Assembly (NCBI GenBank): GCA_903859715.1
Contig: CAIONS010000037.1
Span: 1-39,421, forward strand
Origin: an uncultured Opitutia bacterium
GTDB lineage: Bacteria > Verrucomicrobiota > Verrucomicrobiia > Opitutales > Opitutaceae
Direction: 5' to 3'
DNA length: 39,421 bases
Shown here piece after piece: positions 11,382-21,195 of this stretch. Each line of letters begins with the position of its first letter. The stretch's first letter is position 1. The notes beneath the pieces were generated by a model. It saw only the letters and a list, made by a program, of their open reading frames with translations, did not search any database and was not told the origin of the DNA. Made by a program: the position numbers and the translations under genes.

Positions 11382-12773
11382 CTATAATTCGAGCAATCGT
11401 CCGGCGAGCGCCTTCGCTTGGGCGCGGATCTCCGGCACCGCCGTGCATTCCCAAAGCACGCCTTTGAGCGGCGCTCCCAGCGTAAACAGCCATCCCGCGG
11501 GACCGCCCTGCACGAGCACTTCCCCGGCCGGCGTCGCATCGATCCCCAAGGCCAGCGGATCATGGTCGATCAGGCCGCGCGCGAGCAGGTTGATCAGCAG
11601 CGGATGCTGGTATTTCGAATAGTCACTGCGCGGGCCGGTGCAGTTGATGATCTTCGCCACTTTCACGGTCTGCCACGTAGGGTGGCGCCGGAGCCGGAAA
11701 CGCGCCTCCACACCGTCGGACAGTTCGGTCATTTTTTCCAGCCGGCCGGCATAGAAATAAAGGCGGCCCGCGGCGCGCAGCGCCTCAATCTTCCCAGCGA
11801 CCACCGGCGCGAGCCGGTGGCGGTGTCCCTCCCAAAACGGTCGCACATGCCGCATGAAACGTCCCCGCTCCTCCCAGGACAACGCCGCCCATAACGCCGG
11901 GGTGCAACCCCGGATCGCATCAAGCACCGGCCGCCAGTCCACGCCAGCCGCCTGAGCGGAGCGCACTTCCGCCCGAATCCGGCGGAATAGCCCAAGAATG
12001 GTCGCGGGGGGATTTTCTGCTTCCAAGAACGGCCGGTAGGCGGGCGCGGGCCGATGGACCTGCGGCAGCAACCCGCGGCGCGACAACGCATGCACCGTAC
12101 CACGGTGACCTGCCGACTGCAGCTCCAGCACGATGTCCACGGCCGTCAGGCCTGCGCCGACAATCAGCACGTCCGACTCCGGCGGAATTCCGGCCAGGGC
12201 GCCGGCCCGCCACGGCACGTGCACATAACGTTGCGAGTGATAAATCGGTAAGGGCCGCCGGATCGGGTACTCGCCGGGCAGATTGCCCAGAGCGAGCACA
12301 ACGCGGTCGGCCGAAAAGGCCCGCCCATCGCCACAGCGCAACCGCACCGCGCCGGTCTCCGTCTCGAGGTCGATGACCTCCCCCTTGATTTCCTCATACC
12401 CGACGCCAGGAGCCGCCGCGGTCCGCGCCTCCACCAGCATCGCCCGGAGGTACTCGCCAAAAATCCAGCGCGGCAGGAAATCTCCCGGCTCCACGGCCGC
12501 CGGATAGCCGGGGGTTCCGGCCCGGGCCGCCACCCAGCGTTGAAAATGTCCGATGTCGTCCGGCAACGCGCCCATGCGGGCCGCCGGGACATTCAGGCGG
12601 TGCTCGTGGTTCTCCGTGCCATAGGCCACGCCACGGCCCACATCCGTCATGCGCTCGAACAGCAGCACGCGCAAGGGACTCCGCGCCTGGCGGAGCAGCT
12701 GGACCGCAACGAGAGTGCCGCTGCACCCACCGCCAACGATGGCGATGCTGCGTGGGACGTTAGGTTCGCTCAT
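11382..12773 (-). CDS. FAD/NAD(P)-binding protein (FAD_NAD_binding_9 type)
   Basis: The protein has 463 residues. It opens with a dinucleotide-binding motif, IAIVGGGCSGTLVAVQLL (about residues 10-27), followed by the FERMTDVGRGVAYGT segment characteristic of this flavoprotein group. A second nucleotide-binding motif, VLIVGAGLTAVDIVLELQ, lies near the middle. The layout is that of a two-dinucleotide flavin oxidoreductase or monooxygenase-like protein; some relatives are annotated as hydroxyacylglutathione hydrolase-like or lycopene-cyclase-like without firm evidence. The substrate is unknown. The ATG lies 13 bp after the 3' end of tRNA-Cys on the same strand, so the two may share one transcript. 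Confidence 0.8.
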   Translation of the reverse strand: MSEPNVPRSIAIVGGGCSGTLVAVQLLRQARSPLRVLLFERMTDVGRGVAYGTENHEHRLNVPAARMGALPDDIGHFQRWVAARAGTPGYPAAVEPGDFLPRWIFGEYLRAMLVEARTAAAPGVGYEEIKGEVIDLETETGAVRLRCGDGRAFSADRVVLALGNLPGEYPIRRPLPIYHSQRYVHVPWRAGALAGIPPESDVLIVGAGLTAVDIVLELQSAGHRGTVHALSRRGLLPQVHRPAPAYRPFLEAENPPATILGLFRRIRAEVRSAQAAGVDWRPVLDAIRGCTPALWAALSWEERGRFMRHVRPFWEGHRHRLAPVVAGKIEALRAAGRLYFYAGRLEKMTELSDGVEARFRLRRHPTWQTVKVAKIINCTGPRSDYSKYQHPLLINLLARGLIDHDPLALGIDATPAGEVLVQGGPAGWLFTLGAPLKGVLWECTAVPEIRAQAKALAGRLLEL

Positions 12774-12786
12774 GGCGTGAAGTTGA

Positions 12787-12861
12787 TGGAGGCGGGGGTT
12801 GGAATCGAACCAACTCGTACGGCTTTTGCAGAGCCGGGCCTTCCCACTTGGCGACCCCGCC
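12787..12861 (-). tRNA. tRNA-Cys (anticodon GCA)
   Basis: On the minus strand the acceptor GGCGGGG pairs with CCCCGCC, followed by discriminator T and an encoded CCA (12787-12789). The anticodon stem CGGCT/AGCCG closes the loop CTGCAAA, giving anticodon GCA. The T arm contains GGTTCGATTCC. U73 and GCA are the main cysteine identity elements. The gene lies on the same strand as the sulfur cluster that ends with cysK, and its 5' end follows a terminator-like structure by only about 20 bp. Confidence 0.96.
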
Positions 12862-12880
12862 GCTCAACCTGCGGAAAAGG

Positions 12881-12970
12881 AAAATAAAAATGCGATGTGA
12901 CCGGGCGGGGAATCAATGGACAACCCCAGGAGGGTTGCGATCGATTCCAGTGGCCTGGTCAACATCGCAT
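12881..12970 (-). terminator. Large three-tier hairpin with U-rich tail between cysK and tRNA-Cys
   Basis: On the minus strand the 5' arm ATGCGATGTTGACC (12957-12970) pairs with GGTCACATCGCAT (12890-12902) as 13 bp with one bulged T. Within it, GGAATC/GATTCC (12943-12948 and 12909-12914) form a second stem. CAACCC/GGGTTG (12932-12937 and 12921-12926) form a third, with a 5-base loop. TTTTTATTTTCC follows the 3' arm. This is a credible intrinsic terminator of the cysK transcript, but it is much larger than needed, so it could also be a structured RNA in its own right. Confidence 0.75.
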
Positions 12971-12974
12971 GAGA

Positions 12975-13070
12975 TCCGCCCGGCCTGAAGCACCGGGCGG
13001 AATCGCGTGGCTTAGAGAGGAGCCGGCCCGTTGCCGGGCCGGCCAAAGAACGAACGCGCCGCGGGGCGCG
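12975..13070. repeat. Three further hairpins in the cysK 3' region
   Basis: Three perfect stems follow one another: CGCGCC/GGCGCG (13055-13060 and 13065-13070), GCCGGCCCG/CGGGCCGGC (13022-13030 and 13035-13043), and TCCGCCCGG/CCGGGCGGA (12975-12983 and 12993-13001). None has a U-tract on either strand. With the larger structure next to them they fill nearly the whole gap between the cysK stop and tRNA-Cys. Confidence 0.65.
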
Positions 13071-13088
13071 GATGGCAAACTGCGCAGC

Positions 13089-14075
13089 TCAGGTGGCGAG
13101 CGCAGCCGGGATGAGGTCTTCCAGCGAATCACTCTCCGGGCTGATGTCGGCGAAGAGCCAGGTCGAGAGATAGCGTTCGCTGCTCGACGGGATGATGACG
13201 ACGATCTGCTTGCCCTTGTTTTCGGGCCGCTTCGACAGCTGGATGGCCGCCCAAACCGCCGCACCGGACGAGATACCGACCGGAATGCCGTCGAGCTGGT
13301 TGACCTGCTTGGAGATCGGGCCGGAATCGGCCTCCTTCACGCGGATGATCTCGTCGTAGATCTTCGTGTTGAGCACCGCGGGCACGAAACCGGCGCCGAT
13401 ACCTTGGAGCTTGTGCGGGCCGGGGGCGCCGCCGGAAAGCACCGGCGAGGCGTCAGGTTCCAGCGCGATGATTTTGACCGAGGGTTTCTTCGCTTTCAGC
13501 ACCTCGCCCACGCCGGTGATTGTGCCGCCCGTGCCGATGCCGGAGACGACGATGTCCACCTTGCCGTCAGTATCGCGCCAGATTTCCTCAGCGGTCGTCC
13601 GGCGGTGAATAGCGGGATTCGACGGGTTGGCGAACTGCTGGAGGATGACACTGTTCGGGATCTTGGACTGCAGTTCCTCGGCCTTCGCGATGGCGCCCTT
13701 CATGCCCTTCGGACCTTCCGTGAGCACAAGGCGGGCGCCCAGGATCTTGAGCAGTTTGCGGCGCTCGGTGCTCATCGTCTCGGGCATCGTCAGGATGAGC
13801 TTGAGGCCCTTCGCGGCGGCGACGAACGCCAGCGCGATGCCGGTGTTGCCGCTGGTCGGCTCGATCAGAATGGTCTGCGCGTTGATCTTTCCGCTCTTCA
13901 GCGCGTCATCAATCATCGCGAACCCGATGCGGTCCTTGACGCTGGAGAGCGGGTTGAAGAACTCGAGCTTGAGCAGGATTTCCGCCTGGGCGCCATGGGC
14001 GGCGGCGGTGCGGTTGAGGCGGACGAGCGGCGTGTTGCCGATGGTCTCGGTGATGTCGTTATAGATCTTGGACAT
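13089..14075 (-). CDS. cysK: Cysteine synthase A (O-acetylserine sulfhydrylase)
   Basis: This PLP enzyme of 328 residues converts O-acetylserine and sulfide to cysteine. The PLP lysine is in [11 protein letters not shown] (about residues 41-51). The substrate-carboxylate loop [12 protein letters not shown] and the phosphate-binding glycine loop [10 protein letters not shown] are intact. The C-terminal half has the [13 protein letters not shown] segment contributing the PLP N1 serine. The start ATG at 14075 gives the standard N-terminus ending [14 protein letters not shown]. It is the last gene of the sulfur cluster, 34 bp after cysA, and completes the path from sulfate uptake to cysteine, although no sulfate reduction genes lie in this window. 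Confidence 0.95.
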
Positions 14076-14109
14076 GGTGGTTCTGGGTTGAGTTTGAGTT
14101 GGGGGAAAA

Positions 14110-15165
14110 TCAGATGGCGTAATCGTCATCAAACGAGTGGCTCTGGCGCAAGCGCAGGCGGACGAGGTCGCCCACGCCCAGCCCGAGGGCCGTGAGCTCG
14201 GTGCGGGAAATCTCGGCCTCGACGTTCTCGCGGGTCTGAACGAGCTCGACGGACAGGCGCGCCTGCGGGCCGGCCACATGCACGTACCGGATGACGGCGA
14301 CCGCCCCGGCCGCGCCGGGCACGTCGGGAGCCAGCTCGATGTCATGTGGCCGCACGTAAACCACGCCGTTGGCGATCAGCGTGGCGGGCCGGCGCTGATG
14401 CGCGCCCACCTGTTCCGGCACCTGCCCGCGCAGCACATTCACGTTGCCGAGAAACTGATAAACAAAGGGGGAGGCAGGTTTGTCGTAGACCTCCTGCGGC
14501 GTACCCACCTGCTCCACCTTCGCCTGGTTCATGATCACCACCTCGTCCGCGATCTCGAGCGCCTCCTCCTGGTCGTGAGTGACAAACAGCGTGGTGAGCT
14601 GGATCTCATCATGGAAGCGCCGCAGCCAGCGGCGCAGTTCCTTGCGCACCTTGGCATCGAGCGCACCAAAGGGCTCATCGAGCAGCAGTACCTTGGGCTC
14701 GACGGCGAGAGCCCGGGCGAGCGCGACCCGCTGGCGCTGGCCACCCGAGAGCTGACTTGGATAGCGGGCGTCGAGACCCTCGAGCTGGACGAGCTTGAGC
14801 AGGCGGTGCACCCGGTCGGTGATCTCGGTCGCAGGCGGCCGGTCACGCCGCCGGCGCACCTTCAGACCGAAGGCGATGTTTTCGAGCACAGTCATGTGCC
14901 GGAACAGCGCGTAATGCTGAAAGACAAAGCCGACCTTGCGTTTTCCCGCGGGCACATGAGTCACATCCTCGCCATGAAACTGAATCTGCCCGCTGCCCGG
15001 ATCCGCGTGCTCAAGGCCGGCGATGATGCGTAGGAGCGTGGTCTTGCCCGACCCCGACGGGCCGAGGAGTGCCACGAGCTTTCCGCGCGGCACATTCAGG
15101 TCCACGCCGTCGAGCGCGGTGAAGGCGCCAAAGGTCTTGCGGATGTTGGAAGCGTGGATGCTCAT
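14110..15165 (-). CDS. cysA: Sulfate/thiosulfate ABC transporter ATP-binding protein CysA
   Basis: This ATPase of 351 residues powers sulfate import. Walker A is [12 protein letters not shown] (about 36-47), the ABC signature [15 protein letters not shown] and Walker [13 protein letters not shown]. The [12 protein letters not shown] segment is typical of the CysA group. The C-terminal third (from about 235) is the regulatory/TOBE-like region with [11 protein letters not shown] chose the ATG that gives [13 protein letters not shown]; a longer in-frame start would run into cysW. It lies 7 bp after cysW. Confidence 0.93.
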
Positions 15166-15172
15166 CGATAAA

Positions 15173-16054
15173 TCAGGCTCGGCGGCTCTGCGCATAGCGC
15201 CACTCGACGAAAGCTTTCAGCACCAGTGTGACGATGGCCAGTAACGCCAGCAACGAGGCCACGGCAAAAGCGGCGACGAAGTTGTACTCGTTGTAGAGAA
15301 TCTCGACGTGCAGCGGCATCGTGTTCGTCTCGCCGCGGATGTGTCCGCTCACGACGGACACCGCGCCAAACTCGCCCATGGCGCGGGCGTTGCACAGGAT
15401 GACGCCATAAAGCAGACCCCATTTGATGTTGGGCAGCGTCACCCGCCAGAATGTTTGCCAGCCATTCGCTCCGAGCGTGATGGCCGCATACTCCTCGTCG
15501 GCGCCCTGTGCCTGCATCAACGGGATGAGTTCGCGCGCCACAAACGGGAACGTCACGAACGTCGTGGCCAGGACAATGCCGGGCACGGCAAAGATGATCT
15601 TGATGTCGTGGTCCAGCAGCCACTCGCCGAACCAGCCCTGCAGGCCGAACACGAGGACGTAGATGAGACCGGAAATAACCGGGGAAACGGCAAAGGGCAG
15701 GTCGATCAGCGTCGTGAGCAGGCTCTTGCCGCGAAACTGGAACTTCGCGATCAGCCAGGCCGCCGCCACGCCAAAGACGATATTGGACGGCACGGCGATC
15801 ACGGCGGCCAGCAGGGTCAGCCGGATCGAGGCCAGGGCATCAAGATCGCGGAACGCCGCAAAGTACGCCCCGACCCCGCGGCGCAGCGCCTCGGTAAAAA
15901 CCGCCGCGAGCGGCAGCACGAGGAAGAAAAGCAGAAACAGCAGCGCCACCGCCGTCAGCGTCCAGCGCACCCAAGCTGGATCGTGCGTGGCGCGCGGCGT
16001 CGCCCCGGCCGGAGCCGGATGGACAACCAAGGTACTGGCGATCGTGGAGGCCAT
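15173..16054 (-). CDS. cysW: Sulfate ABC transporter permease CysW
   Basis: This permease of 293 residues has six membrane helices and the EAA loop region around [20 protein letters not shown], matching CysW. The [20 protein letters not shown] segment is the sulfate permease signature. The start ATG at 16054 lies 2 bp after the cysT stop, which supports coupled translation. It pairs with CysT in the membrane and with CysA in the cytoplasm. Confidence 0.93.
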
Positions 16055-16056
16055 GG

Positions 16057-16902
16057 TCAGATCCGGTGGTAGCGCCGGCTCCATTTCTGGAGCAGATTGA
16101 TGAGCAGCAGCATGGAAAACGACGCCACGAGCATCACCACCGCGATCGCGGTGGCGCCGCGGTAGTCGTATTGCTCGAGCTTCGTGATGATGAGCAGCGG
16201 CGTGATTTCGGTGCGCATCGGCATGTTGCCCGAGATGAAGACCACCGAACCGTATTCCCCGAGGGCCCGCGCGAAGGCGAGCGCGAAGCCGGTCAGCAAC
16301 GCGGGGAAGAGTTCAGGCAAAATCACGCGTGTGATCGTATCCCAGCGATTCGCCCCGAGGCTCGCGGCGGCCTCCTCGATCTCCGGTTCCAGCTCAAGCA
16401 AAACGGGCTGCAGGGTGCGGACCACAAAAGGCAGCCCGATGAAGGTCAGCGCCACGAACACGCCGATTTCCGTGAACGCGACCTTGATGCCATGCGGCTC
16501 AAGCCAGCGCCCCACCCAGCCGTTCTTCGAGTAGATGGCGGTGAGCGCGATGCCCGCGACCGCGGTCGGCAGCGCGAACGGCAGATCCACCAGCGCATCC
16601 ACAATGCGGCGGCCCGGAAACGAATAGCGGACCAGCACCCACGCCACAATGAGGCCGAAGAACATGTTCACCATCCCCGCCGCCAACGAAGCGAGGAAAC
16701 TCAGCCGGTAGGACGCCAGCACGCGGGGCGAGGCCACCGCCGTGACAAATTCATCCCAGCTCATGCCCGCGGTCTTCAGGAACGCCGCCGAGAGCGGGAT
16801 CAGCACAATCAGTCCCAGGTAGGCCAGCGTGAAGCCAAGCGACAGCCCGAATCCGGGCAGAACGCGGCGTGGGGTACGGGGTAAGGTGGCGGCAAGACTC
16901 AC
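16057..16902 (-). CDS. cysT: Sulfate ABC transporter permease CysT
   Basis: This permease of 281 residues has six membrane helices. Its EAA-loop region is [20 protein letters not shown], and the signature [22 protein letters not shown] is that of CysT/CysU. I placed the start at a GTG (16900-16902) that overlaps the stop of the upstream hydrolase as GTGA and gives [18 protein letters not shown]. An upstream ATG at 16962 would need a long overlap. The 4-base overlap couples it to the M14-like gene. Confidence 0.92.
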
Positions 16903-17705
16903 AGGTTGGCTCCTTGGGCGATAAATCCCCGGTACTCTGCCAAGACGGACTGCAGCGCGCAACAGGTTGCTTCGACTTGTTGTGTCATCGGCGCGGACGC
17001 CGGCGTTTCAAAAATGATCTCGAAGGGACGCGGCCGCTGGTCCGGCGGAGGCGCCAGGATGCCCGAGTAACAGTCGTCAATAAGTCCCTCCCGGGCTGCA
17101 AAGCCGTCGATGATCCCGCGCGGATCGACCGGGAGTACATGCGCGGAGGCACGGAGCGCGGGAGCGAGGAGATTTTCGTTCAGCACCCGGCCCTGCGTGT
17201 AGCCGTAGAGCCCGTCGCAGGTATCATCGGTGTGAAGCGCGATGACCCCGTCGAACTGTTGCGTGCGCAGTTCCTCCTCAAGGATCCTGATCTCGGGGAG
17301 CTCTGAGTCGCACCAGAACTCGCGGTTCAGGTCGAAACCGGCCCGGTTGTGCCGGGTGCCGTCCTCATAGCCGGTCGGATTGCACAGCGGATAGAGCAGG
17401 AGCTCGTAACCGGCGGCGGCCGCTGGCGCATCAACCAGACGCTTGAGCAGGCCTTGCAGCGCGAACGCTCCCGCCGGTTCGTCACCATGCACTAAAGCGA
17501 ATACGCCCAGCCGGATGGGCGGCATGCCGGTCGCCGGTCCGCGAAAGACAAACCGCGGCAGCTCGTAATGCTCCTCCGCCATCGCGAAGGATCCCGCCCG
17601 CGTCGCATTGATCACCGGGCAGGTTTCGGCCAGCACCTGAAACGATTCAACCAGCCGGCCCAGTTTGGACGAGCGAACCGTTTCAGATGAAGCGAGTGTG
17701 GCCAT
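16899..17705 (-). CDS. M14-family / succinylglutamate desuccinylase-like Zn hydrolase
   Basis: The protein has 268 residues with a zinc carboxypeptidase-type core. Zinc ligands are His73 and Glu76 in HGDEPAG and His158 in ALHTDDT. The substrate-binding Arg128 is in [10 protein letters not shown]. No signal peptide is visible, so it should be cytoplasmic. Relatives remove acyl or amino acid groups from small molecules or peptides. The gene is inserted between the sulfate-binding protein and CysT and overlaps CysT by four bases, so it is part of the operon. A role in freeing cysteine, or another sulfur compound, from a conjugate is possible but is only inference from position. Confidence 0.75.
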
Positions 17706-17752: not shown

Positions 17753-18772
17753 CTATTTTTTCAGGTAGATCTGGTCAAAGATTCCGCCGTCGGCGAAGTG
17801 GGTCTTCTGCGCCTTGGTCCAGCCGCCGAACTCGGCGTCGATCGTCACCAACTGGAGCTGCGGAAAGATCTTCGCATACTTGGCGGAGGCCTTGGCCGAG
17901 CGCGGCCGGTAATAGTTGCGACCGGCGATATCCTGACCTTCGTCCGAGTAGAGATACTGGAGATAGGCTTTCGCAACGTCGGCGGTGCCTTTCCGGGCGG
18001 CCACTTTGTCCACCACCGTCACCGGCGGTTCGGCGAGAATACTGAGCGAGGGCACAACGATCTCAAAGTTGTCGGCGCCGAACTCCTTCAGGACGAGGAA
18101 GGCCTCATTTTCCCAGGTGATCGCCACATCGCCAATTTCCCGTTGGGCGAACGTGGTGGTCGAACCACGGGCCCCGGAATCGAGCACCGGCACGTTCTGG
18201 TAGAGAGTGGTGACGAAGGCTTTCGCCGCCGCATCGCTGCCCAGCTTGTGTTTGGCGTAGGCCCAGGCCGCGAGGTAGTTCCAGCGCGCGCCACCGGAAG
18301 TCTTCGGGTTGGGTGTGATCACACCCACACCCGGTTTCACGAGGTCATCCCAGTCCTTGATCGCCTTCGGGTTCCCTTTGCGGACGAGGAATACGATCGT
18401 GCTGGTGTAGGGCGTGGAGTTCTGCGGCAGGCGCTTTTGCCAGTCGGCAGGAATCAGCTTTGCGTTGGCATACAGCGCATCGATGTCCGCCGCGAGGGCC
18501 AGCGTGACAACGTCGGCCTGCAGGCCGTCGATCACACTGCGGGCCTGTTTGCCCGAGCCGCCGTGCGACTGTTTGATGACGACGTCATCACCGGTCTTCG
18601 CCTTCCAGTAAGAGGAGAAAACCTGGTTGAAATCGGCGTAGAGTTCGCGCGTCGGATCGTAGGAGACATTGAGCAACTCGATGGTTTTGCCGGATACCGT
18701 GGCGGCCAGCCCGGCACCCAGCAGGAGAAAAAACGGAATGAATTTCATGAGGTGATGGAGGAGGGTTTTCAT
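17753..18772 (-). CDS. sbp: Sulfate/thiosulfate-binding periplasmic protein
   Basis: This secreted protein of 339 residues has an N-terminal signal peptide (hydrophobic core [18 protein letters not shown]). The mature part starts [15 protein letters not shown], the family opening. Sulfate-contacting segments [37 protein letters not shown] and [19 protein letters not shown] are all present, as is the terminal GGIFDQIY. A second Met (18748) is an alternative start. It captures sulfate or thiosulfate for CysTWA. Confidence 0.94.
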
Positions 18773-18797: not shown

Positions 18798-20258
18798 TCA
18801 GAAGCCGACTTGGACCCGTGTCAGGATGGCCCGTTCGTCCGCCCCGATGAGGGTGTTGGTCGTTGATGTCGTACCGCTGGCGCGATCGAAGTTCGTCAGC
18901 ACGTAATCGAGATCAAAGCGGATCGTTTTGCTGAGATACCAGTTCAGGCCCAGGCCGTAGGCGGTTGCCCCACTGGCACTGGCGGCCGGATCGGACAACA
19001 GGGGGAAGGCGTCGCTGTCGATCTTCAAGCGATCCACGCGCGCTGCGATCTCCCAGGCACCCCACCCGCCCGAACCCGGCCTGAATGGAGACAACGGAAC
19101 GATGCCGTCGTACGAAGCCTTTTCCCCGGTCAGGAAATAACCCACACCGACCTGCCAGGCAGAGTTGCGCACATCGATCTTGCTGGTGCCCACGAGGGCC
19201 GTGACCGCCGAGGCGGTGTACTCAGTCTGGAGGGAAAGCGGCCCGACATAATAGTTGGCCTGCGGCGACACCCGCCAGGTCGTCCCGTACGGCGTGACCG
19301 TGCTGCGATACGTGAAGAAGGTCTGCTGCGAGTCGGTCTTGTAGCCGCTCGTCAGGCTGCTGCTCTTGTTGTGATCCCCCGCACTGCCGCCAAGACCGAA
19401 GCCCAGGCCTTTCAAAAGAGAATCTGCGTCGGCCAGAAAGGGGCGGAAGAAAATCCGGCCCACAAAGTCCTTGCCGTTGTCCGTTGCGACGTTGTTGGCG
19501 TAGGCGGCGTCAGCGCTGCCGTTCACCACGCCGGCGGAATAGGTGACCGCACCCTTGGACCATCCGCCTCCCGCCACCACGCCGACATCGCGCGACGGCA
19601 CGAGGTTGGTCGCCAGCGAGCGTTCGGGGAACAGGAGCACGGCGTCGTTTTGCAGCATCTCCAGGCCGATCGGTGACTTGAACTTGCCAAACTTGAGCTG
19701 GAAAGCCGGATCGAAGGCGATGTTGAGGCTGGCATCGTAGATCACCGGCGCATTCGAAACGCCGGTGCCGCCACCGCCGAATTCCGGCACGATCAGGAAA
19801 CTGTAGATCTTGTCGAAGCCGCCCTCAAAAATCAGGCGGGCCCGCCGCAGCACGAACGTGTCGTTGTTGGGAATGCCGTGGTCGTCCGTGTACCAGCGCG
19901 AATCCAGCTGCACGAGGCCGTGCAGCTTGATGAAATTGGCACTGTCGGCCGAGGCGAAGGTGAAGCCCGTGTTGTCGATGGTGATCTTCGGCGCAGACGC
20001 CGTCGCGGGAGTGGCCTCGACCGGCGCAGAAGCTGAAATCGGCGCGGCGGCGGATCCGGCCGCGGCCGCTCCCGGCTGACCTTGCGCGACTTTTTGCTCA
20101 AGGGCATTCAGCCGCTGCGCGAGCTGCTGCATCTCGGTGCGGATTTGCCGGATCTCATCGAGATCATTGGCGCGGGCCAGCGGCGACGCGCCCAGATAAA
20201 CGACTGCCAGCGCAGCCAACAGGGCCGGCCAACGGAGGAATGACAGGGTGGGATTCAT
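18798..20258 (-). CDS. OprO/OprP-like outer membrane porin with N-terminal coiled coil
   Basis: The precursor has 486 residues with a signal peptide (cleavage likely near SPLARA). A short coiled coil follows (about 33-60: [20 protein letters not shown]), then an Ala/Pro linker and a beta-barrel. The barrel segments [29 protein letters not shown], and a C-terminal Phe as the outer-membrane sorting residue match the phosphate-selective porin O/P family. Its place between YezD and Sbp suggests it admits sulfate or organosulfur anions rather than phosphate; this is inferred from context. The coiled coil may tether to peptidoglycan or mediate trimer contacts. Confidence 0.88.
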
Positions 20259-20391
20259 GACGAATCAGGTGTGGGTCTCTGGTCTCGCAACTGCTCCGAT
20301 GCCGGGTGAGTCGAGGGTGTTAGGGATTCGGTGGTGGAGCCTCCGGGCGGTGGCCGGTAGGCGGAAAGGGACGCAGCGATGCGGCGGACGT

Positions 20392-20583
20392 TCAGTCGGG
20401 CCGGCCGGACCGATCGGTCGCAGGCAGGCGGGTCTTCTCGGTGCGCTCGATCTGGGTGACGCGACCGTCGTGGACGACGAGCTGGACAACGCCGAACCGG
20501 AGGCTCTCGACTTTTTCCCGCACGAGCGCGATCCAGTCAGGGACGGAAGCTTGGACAGTCGTTTGATCAGTAGAGGTCGGCAT
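20392..20583 (-). CDS. yezD: YezD family small protein (DUF2292)
   Basis: This small soluble protein has 63 residues. The core LRFGVVQLVVHDGRVTQIERTEKTRL is characteristic of DUF2292/YezD (quoted only as the segment LRFGVVQLVVHDGRV at about 28-42 and QIERTEKTRL at about 44-53). In Bacillus subtilis yezD belongs to the sulfur-responsive CymR regulon, but its biochemical function is unknown. Here it is directly downstream of an Rrf2 regulator (12 bp) and upstream of the sulfate genes, the same association. The C-terminal extension PATDRSGRPD looks disordered. Confidence 0.88.
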   Translation of the reverse strand: MPTSTDQTTVQASVPDWIALVREKVESLRFGVVQLVVHDGRVTQIERTEKTRLPATDRSGRPD

Positions 20584-20595
20584 GACAGTCTGAGG

Positions 20596-21195
20596 TTAGA
20601 TGGTGTAGTCGCCCAGGAGCTGGTGCAGCACGCCCTCGGTCTCATCGAGGCGCATGGCACCGGTCCGGCCGGCGAGCTTGCGGGCGTGACGGGGAGAGAG
20701 GCGCGCCGACGTAATCGCACCCTCGGCCTCGGGGGAAAAGGGCAGCGGCACGTTGTCGCGGCGGAGCTTGCGCAGCGTGACTTCCACGACGTCCGCGAGC
20801 GTGTAGCGGTCGAGAATGCCGGCGATGGCGTTGCGGACATCCAGCATGAGCATCCGCAGGCCGCAGTGCGCCTCGTCGGGGCACGTGCATTTTTCGTAAG
20901 CACTCTGGCTGACGCAGCCGATGGGCGCGAGCGGACCGTCGATGAGCCGCACTACCTCTCCGATCGTGATACGCTTGGCAGGCTTGGCCAGGCGGTAGCC
21001 GCCAAACTTGCCCCGGGCACTCACGACGAGCCCCGCTTCCTTGAGCGCCTGCATAATTTGCTCCAGGAATTTGATCGGCAGCTGCTCCGTGTCGGCGAGT
21101 TCGGCGACCTGAACCAGCGACCGACCGACCTCGGCGGCAATGCCAAGATTGATGAGCGAGCGGAGGGCGTATTCGCCTTTTTTGGAGAGCTTCAT
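20596..21195 (-). CDS. Rrf2 family transcriptional regulator, CymR/IscR-like
   Basis: The protein has 199 residues with a winged helix-turn-helix (opening MKLSKKGEYALRSLINLG, recognition region LPIKFLEQIMQALKEAGLV, wing RGKFGGYRLAKP). Four cysteines, Cys94, Cys103, Cys105 and Cys111, lie in the region where IscR and NsrR bind an Fe-S cluster. The spacing differs from IscR (CX5CX5C). The C-terminus (about 150-199) is longer than in typical family members and has no recognised domain. It heads the sulfur cluster and probably senses cysteine, O-acetylserine or Fe-S status; the signal is unknown. Confidence 0.9.
   Translation of the reverse strand: MKLSKKGEYALRSLINLGIAAEVGRSLVQVAELADTEQLPIKFLEQIMQALKEAGLVVSARGKFGGYRLAKPAKRITIGEVVRLIDGPLAPIGCVSQSAYEKCTCPDEAHCGLRMLMLDVRNAIAGILDRYTLADVVEVTLRKLRRDNVPLPFSPEAEGAITSARLSPRHARKLAGRTGAMRLDETEGVLHQLLGDYTI

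Follow-up and report, generated by a model that had tools for sequence, protein, structure and literature searches.

The gap between the cysteine synthase gene cysK and a neighboring tRNA-Cys gene would, in the reading that we prefer and to which we give a probability of about 0.5, carry an RNA stem-loop of a sulfur regulon (E2) that here also serves as the 5' arm of an intrinsic terminator gating the downstream genes. E2 is the stem-loop ACC-N-G-N4-C-N'-GGA, in which N and N' form the one free (middle) pair. The same stem-loop also stands at the head of sulfate-uptake operons across several families belonging to one class, so that neither an ordinary terminator nor a tRNA-specific switch describes E2 as well as a sulfur-control element, probably one not yet catalogued.

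Gene setting and fold of the gap

The window (the whole stretch of DNA that was analyzed, 39,421 nucleotides) contains a sulfate-assimilation run with the one-strand order Rrf2, DUF2292/OscA-like, porin, sulfate-binding protein, AstE/AspA-like, cysT, cysW, cysA, cysK, gap, tRNA-Cys and NAD_binding_9. The cysK gene closes the cysT-cysW-cysA-cysK run. The adjacency of cysK and tRNA-Cys on one strand, as described in the first-pass annotation, was borne out: cysK ends at 13089 and tRNA-Cys(GCA) lies at 12861-12787, both on the minus strand. The features are as follows.

20596..21195, minus strand: Rrf2-family regulator (PF02082; best equivalog model CymR NF047409 at 88.7 bits, which fails the cut-off of 195)
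20392..20583, minus strand: oscA-like small protein (DUF2292; PF10055, 59 bits)
20259..20391, minus strand: oscA-porin leader of the window genome
20339..20362, minus strand: E1 hairpin GCCTACCGGCCACCGCCCGGAGGC in this leader
20294..20307, minus strand: degenerate E2-like ACCCGGCATCGGAG in this leader, failing the strict pattern (by eye)
18798..20258, minus strand: porin (Porin_O_P; PF07396, 136 bits)
17753..18772, minus strand: sulfate-binding protein (sbp; NF008022, 519 bits, cut-off 288)
17723-16899, minus strand: AstE/AspA-like gene, between sbp and cysT
16057..16962, minus strand: cysT, true start probably further in (TIGR02139, 425 bits, cut-off 246)
15173..16084, minus strand: cysW (TIGR02140, 418 bits, cut-off 329)
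14110..15195, minus strand: cysA-like sulfate ABC ATPase (TIGR00968, 396 bits, cut-off 343)
13089..14078, minus strand: cysK, cysteine synthase A, ATG at about 14075 (TIGR01139, 446 bits, cut-off 351; PF00291)
13055..13070, minus strand: hairpin 1, terminator-like, then TTCGTTCTTT (fold and simple terminator scan)
13021..13044, minus strand: hairpin 2, GGCCGGCCCG-GCAA-CGGGCCGGCU (fold)
12975..13001, minus strand: hairpin 3, TCCGCCCGG / CCGGGCGGA (fold)
12890..12970, minus strand: long three-tier hairpin with the shape of an intrinsic terminator (forced hairpin beside the U-tract, -45.1 kcal/mol)
12937..12968, minus strand: conserved small hairpin GCGAU-GUUGA-CCAG-GCCA-CUGG-AAUCG-AUCGC, an alternative to the long hairpin (covariance model, outer-stem swap test)
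12946..12959, minus strand: E2 core ACCAGGCCACTGGA, 4-bp stem with tetraloop GCCA, in the 5' arm of the long hairpin (pattern and covariation)
12881..12890, minus strand: U-rich tail TTTTTATTTT, ending 19 nt before the tRNA
12787..12861, minus strand: second, divergent tRNA-Cys(GCA)
11382..12773, minus strand: FAD/NAD(P)-binding protein (NAD_binding_9; PF13454, 134 bits)

The gap folds with a minimum free energy of -113.6 kcal/mol. Dinucleotide shuffles give -84.3 (sd 4.7), and not one of the 200 reaches so low a value (z = -6.25). The three GC-rich hairpins, the three-tier hairpin with a bulged 13-bp base and the U-rich tail are present where the first-pass annotation had placed them. In the base of the long hairpin, AUGCGAUGU, a bulged U and GACC face GGUC-ACAUCGCAU, giving 13 bp with one bulge; above it lie tiers of 3 bp and 9 bp, the second carrying an 8-bp tip. 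With TTTTTATTTT, the long hairpin has the GC stem and the immediate U-tract of an intrinsic terminator. A simple terminator scan reported hairpin 1 as its sole match (shuffles average 1.9), because the scan permits loops of 3-8.

Several other identities for the gap were considered and rejected. The genome has no second full copy of the stretch (the best other match is 24 nt), which rules out a repeat or mobile hairpin. The 24-nt match, on contig C58 and within LESIGTLASGIAHD, raised the possibility of a HisKA gene relic; it fits the minus strand poorly and was taken as chance. An integron attC or REP-like site was dismissed for the absence of core sites (by eye) and of a second copy, and coding by the conserved strand was dismissed because the differences show no third-position bias (by eye). 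A cmscan of the whole window with Rfam 15 returned two tRNAs only at the gathering score, and at E<=10 the interval 12700-13200 gave the tRNA and four matches far below gathering.

Some features of the surroundings deserve mention. The other tRNA-Cys(GCA) of the window genome (G000), at G000:C56:307981-308055, is 79% identical to the one beside the gap; genome G016 likewise has two tRNA-Cys types, one of them about 3 kb from its NAD_binding_9 gene. The OscA-like protein scores 36.8 bits against the OscA equivalog NF033785, below the cut-off of 85. Its AlphaFold model was poor (mean pLDDT 60) and was left unused, and a PDB sequence search gave no match at E<=1. The AstE/AspA-like gene lies inside the sulfate operon, and a similar protein stands behind oscA in a locus of another family (L333, by eye). 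An AT-rich stretch at about 21240-21196, just upstream of rrf2, is found at the same place in L237 and L243; the window and L237 share similar words in it (CAATGTAGATT), and it is a candidate rrf2 promoter or operator.

The stem-loop behind cysK in relatives

A DNA search with the long hairpin over 252 genomes of the family found copies directly behind cysK in G005, G250, G065, G033, G135 and G094; two other matches (G034 and contig C58 of G000) were not cysK-downstream copies. A 44-position covariance model built from seven copies retrieved those seven and G249 with E-values of 2.3e-6 or better. It also matched nine more genomes at E 0.0013-0.0096, and cysK was absent from every one of the loci fetched from them. 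Across 135 cysK-downstream regions, a loose pattern added G181, G196 and G166, and the strict pattern added G020.

In all, E2 lies downstream of cysK in 12 of 135 cysK regions, window included (11 strict matches plus G249 with one deviating base), and 123 regions lack it. The shuffled expectation is 0.58 for the bare pattern and 0.3 for the paired pattern. The source of these 135 regions is the set of 252 family genomes, in which two cysK genes sometimes occur and many cysK genes were not fetched; one region (L019) holds just 35 nt past the stop. The element is strand-specific behind cysK (11 sense vs 0 antisense). Beyond the family, covariance model R1, which covers the cysK form of the element only, gave four weak matches in 288 genomes of the phylum (E 9e-4 to 3e-3), none beside cysK. 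The exact pattern occurred in 29 stretches of a contig collection: the two from Opitutaceae/Opitutae are cysK copies, and the other 27 were called chance by organism name.

In the sister species G005, hairpins 1-3 recur with changed letters and kept pairing, E2 is present, and tRNA-Cys lies about 125 nt further from cysK than in the window. Its hairpin at the position of hairpin 2 holds a full E2 core, ACCCGTCCACGGGA (L010, 51 nt past the cysK stop), so there are two E2 behind the G005 cysK. Other congeners whose cysK was read have a simple hairpin or nothing special there and no tRNA-Cys (by eye), and in the remaining relatives read the recognizable part of the long hairpin is its conserved part alone.

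Among the genes beyond the element, NAD_binding_9 is enriched: 6/12 loci with E2 have it no more than 700 nt past the cysK stop, vs 3/123 without (one of the three matches the C-terminal part only; Fisher 9e-6, kinship ignored). Among the other E2-cysK neighbors are a TonB-type receptor in G249 and G250 and a rhodanese in G181 (by eye). The NAD_binding_9 gene behind the element in G033 (G033:C49:11769-13142) has one TGA and one TAG, indicating a pseudogene or an assembly error.

The long hairpin and the small hairpin within its 5' arm are not kept equally. The arms of the long hairpin pair better than shuffled sequences in five loci (z of -5.1 in G000, -2.2 in G065, -3.2 in G166, -2.2 in G135 and -1.6 in G181) and no better than shuffled in 6/11 (G005, G033, G250, G094, G249 and G196; z -0.35 to +0.74). 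Native arm pairs beat swapped arms modestly (94 of 5000 permutations), and letters are conserved more strongly in the 5' arm than in the 3' arm. Common to the copies is the small 5'-arm hairpin, an outer stem round CCNG-NNNN-CNGG with an A on either side. In 9/12 copies the outer stem keeps 4-5 of its 5 pairs without a shift in register (swap test, 145 of 20000). The first-pass annotation had looked to conservation and covariation of the stems; the E2 part shows both, and the arms of the long hairpin fall short in those six loci.

Near the U-tract, a competing hairpin uses the E2 strand in G000 (-45.1), G065 (-35.4) and G166 (-31.2, with a neighboring stem), and in part in G135 and G181. The strand that would act as sensor accordingly overlaps the terminator arm in the window, G065 and G166, partly in G135 and G181, and not in G005, G033, G094, G249 and G196. 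Where the six weak-arm loci have a U-tract, the hairpin forced beside it leaves E2 intact. Given these weak arms and the intact E2, the terminator half of the arrangement is not general.

Sulfate-operon leaders and covariation

A 15-mer pattern, ACCAGRCCACTGGAR, had 14 matches in the 252 genomes, compared with 7 for a reversed-pattern control. Six were cysK copies, three lay in porin leaders (between the Rrf2-oscA pair and the porin gene), one was a site in G158 and four were apparent chance. Because three matches fell between Rrf2-oscA and porin, the region behind rrf2 was read in 73 loci. The G158 site (L221, position 1750) is an E2-like core between a PALP-fold (cysteine synthase-like) gene and metN (by eye).

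Of these 73 loci, 48 have an oscA-like gene by motif; the 25 left out include at least two with a strict E2 (L261 and L307). ACCNG-N4-CNGGA occurs within 160 nt of the oscA stop in 38/48 leaders, vs 0.15 in shuffled sequences. Three of the 38 matches had prompted the leader search and the other 35 are independent of that. All 38 are on the sense strand, with none antisense in the 48 leaders, and N and N' are complementary in every one (C-G 19, A-T 16, G-C 2, T-A 1). Twenty different tetraloops occur across 50 E2 matches from leaders and cysK regions. The gene after the leader is mostly a porin (by eye), and an ATG lies 28-37 nt past E2 in 31/38 leaders.

A second hairpin, E1 (ACCGx...x'CGG[AC]GG), is present in 29/48 leaders (shuffled 0.12), with x and x' paired in 26/28. 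The gap from E1 to E2 is 27-46 nt in 23 of the 24 leaders measured; the remaining one, with a gap of -16, is a single hairpin fitting both patterns. In the window's own oscA leader E1 is present and E2 is degenerate only. In 15/38 oscA leaders (e.g. L272, L274 and L286), an ATG 7-9 nt past E2 opens a short ORF. In these three the ORF ends within the porin start (ATGA), a sign that the two may be translated in a coupled way in that group. As a conserved feature the short upstream ORF was rejected, since its reading frames are not kept (by eye).

Rfam gave no match in 12 leader loci of the family at E<=0.5 or in five loci of other families at E<=1. A search of six genomes for further regulon members with YGACCNGNNNNCNGGARG gave 41 matches vs 21 for the reversed pattern. 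It found the G033 porin leader again, and of 13 matches inspected none lay in an evident sulfur leader and several lay within long ORFs.

Inspection of the leaders by eye showed no terminator close to E2, and the element must therefore have a different output there. Stacked GC hairpins with a U-tract could simply end the cys operon, without any sensing, and we consider this unlikely. Hairpin 1 and the long hairpin are both terminator-like, and many relatives have a simple hairpin and a T-run behind cysK (by eye). A plain terminator, however, needs no conserved letters in one arm that are common to oscA leaders lacking a visible terminator. The earlier view that the gap holds more than a plain terminator gains support, because the inner small stem-loop shows conservation and covariation and is found again in the leaders of sulfate operons.

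Covariation was computed on 48 distinct E2 rows from alignment A3, whose 49 rows (37 leader and 12 cysK) include one duplicate. A3 omits L300, whose match is E1, and the first of the two G005 matches; alignment A2, which holds one antisense chance match, was not used. The middle pair is AU in 26 rows, CG in 18, GC in two, GU in one and UA in one. It is thus paired in 48/48 and changed on both sides in 21, and the covariation is 0.281 vs 0.060 shuffled (0 of 500). Three of the four E2 pairs are invariant and define the search, so the covariation rests on the middle pair and the outer stem. Copies within one genome can carry unlike middle pairs. For instance, G005 has A-T in the leader and C-G and G-C behind cysK, G033 has T-A and A-T, and G065 has C-G and G-U; in G135 and G166 both copies are A-T.

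A DUF2292 search covering 87 genomes from the order and 49 from the class yielded 28 loci, and it also matched Bacillus subtilis, one of 14 control genomes. A paired sense E2 lies within about 520 nt of DUF2292 in 19/28 loci, with none antisense; nine loci, the window among them, have no E2. Outside the family, E2 stands behind DUF2292 in 17/25 loci, in nine further families; of the 28 loci, L338 and L341 share one contig. Left out of the 25 are three loci of the family, namely the window and L318, which the 48 leaders already contain, and L316 from the same genus. In L332 and L339 the paired E2 hairpin occurs twice, and an E1-like hairpin precedes E2 in L320, L321, L323 and L324. We note that these counts come from related genomes, and the statistics therefore overstate independence (the Fisher test and the shuffles ignore kinship).

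E2 might instead be a DNA operator, for example for the Rrf2/CymR-like regulator of the same operon, with the RNA hairpin being only how a palindrome appears. The Rrf2 gene does head the operon, CCNG-N4-CNGG is a dyad, E2 is present at several sulfur loci and a dimeric repressor could likewise produce a palindrome. Nevertheless, we hold this to be distinctly improbable. The outer letters are asymmetric, an A flanking the stem at either end when one strand is read, and E2 is found on the sense strand only in all three sets (38 vs 0, 11 vs 0 and 19 vs 0). Copies in the same genome stay complementary even where their middle pairs differ, G-U being one of these. The leader site is internal to the operon, a short distance ahead of the following start codon. 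The asymmetric flanks, the single strand and the varied middle pairs therefore favor an RNA stem over a DNA site.

It is also decidedly unlikely that a small RNA is processed out of the cysK 3' UTR with the long hairpin as its stable 3' terminus or its seed region. The stronger conservation of the 5' arm and the terminator-like end would fit such an RNA, but the conserved letters make a hairpin stem that is also found far from cysK. We regard it as very improbable that control of the neighboring tRNA-Cys, T-box-like or by other tRNA feedback, is what the element evolved for. It adjoins tRNA-Cys in G000 and G005, and the E2 arm (TGGAATCGA) has 9 nt complementary to the T arm of this tRNA, but in 10/12 loci the nearest 700 nt hold no tRNA-Cys, G065, G166, G181, G196 and others no longer have the 9-nt match (by eye), and Rfam gave no T-box match. 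Control of tRNA-Cys had been the role first proposed for the gap. As a main role it is not supported, with tRNA-Cys within 700 nt in only 2/12 copies (G000 and its sister G005) and the tRNA being the second, divergent one. The idea of a regulatory role is partly supported and moves to the sulfur regulon, on the strength of E2 conservation, covariation and the leaders.

Proposed mechanism and comparison with known systems

E1 and E2 most likely constitute a new family of cis-regulatory RNA stem-loops, whose function we infer from sequence and gene context. We think that they control the sulfate-uptake operon, and that the cysK copy may put the genes beyond it under the same control. In the operon layout rrf2-oscA-(E1-E2)-porin-sbp-cysTWA, E2 is often the second of two hairpins. 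Since E2 here lies inside an intrinsic terminator, the two should exclude each other and could gate read-through. During passage of RNA polymerase, E2 would form first, with the outer GCGAU/AUCGC stem closing. We infer that E2 is then bound: a sulfur signal, either a protein or a metabolite, would hold it, the long hairpin would stay open and read-through would reach tRNA-Cys and the NAD_binding_9 gene. With no signal, the long hairpin would close and terminate transcription.

By its position, the OscA-like protein is the obvious candidate binder. A broader proposal, that E1-E2 is a new, class-wide type of sulfur-responsive leader RNA read by the DUF2292/OscA-like protein encoded directly upstream, is quite unlikely in our estimate. 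If true, the DUF2292/OscA-like family would gain an RNA-binding role and the cysK-tRNA-Cys gap would be a terminator gated by that same protein. A short stem-loop that keeps to one strand and is linked with both sulfate uptake and cysteine synthesis is a concrete target for reporter or pull-down work, and may reveal the function of DUF2292/OscA-like proteins. It is also an instance of a leader element that recurs after cysK and in some species is now part of a terminator.

CymR/Rrf2 operators are DNA sites of the cysteine regulon. The likeness lies in the cysteine regulon and in the Rrf2 gene of the operon; unlike these operators, E2 keeps to one strand and has the behavior of a stem in RNA. 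Of the half-site symmetry expected for Rrf2/CymR, the E2 core dyad is present, with asymmetric flanks and one orientation only.

The open-access literature, among the matches listed, holds no description of such an RNA, and most subscription papers lay outside that coverage. The main texts of PMC11109978 and PMC8632094 contain no Opitutus, Verrucomicrob, cysK, porin or DUF2292. The STAS riboswitch candidate of Streptomyces resembles our element in that a candidate RNA adjoins a gene whose domain is of the sulfate-transport type. It differs in its three-stem junction including the Shine-Dalgarno sequence (PMC11109978), and it belongs to another phylum.

ANTAR antiterminator targets (EutV/NasR/AmiR) likewise consist of two small hairpins in metabolic operon leaders that compete with a terminator (PMC3369931). 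Tandem hairpins are found here as well (E1 in 29/48 and E2 in 38/48 leaders, both measurable in 24). The hexaloops of ANTAR targets need A1 and G4 (PMC3369931); with the E2 loop read as GNNNNC, A1 occurs in 0/50 and G4 in 3/50 rows. The E1-E2 linker of 27-46 nt also differs from the 5-12 nt quoted for eut in that paper.

The HMP-PP (thiS motif) riboswitch is a terminator-embedded aptamer, with a conserved sensor strand within the terminator stem and mutually exclusive sensor and terminator shapes (PMC6478431). E2 would resemble it in a sensor strand within the terminator arm, mutually exclusive shapes and service to one pathway. It differs in sequence, structure and pathway, its ligand is hypothetical and its leader copies have no visible terminator.
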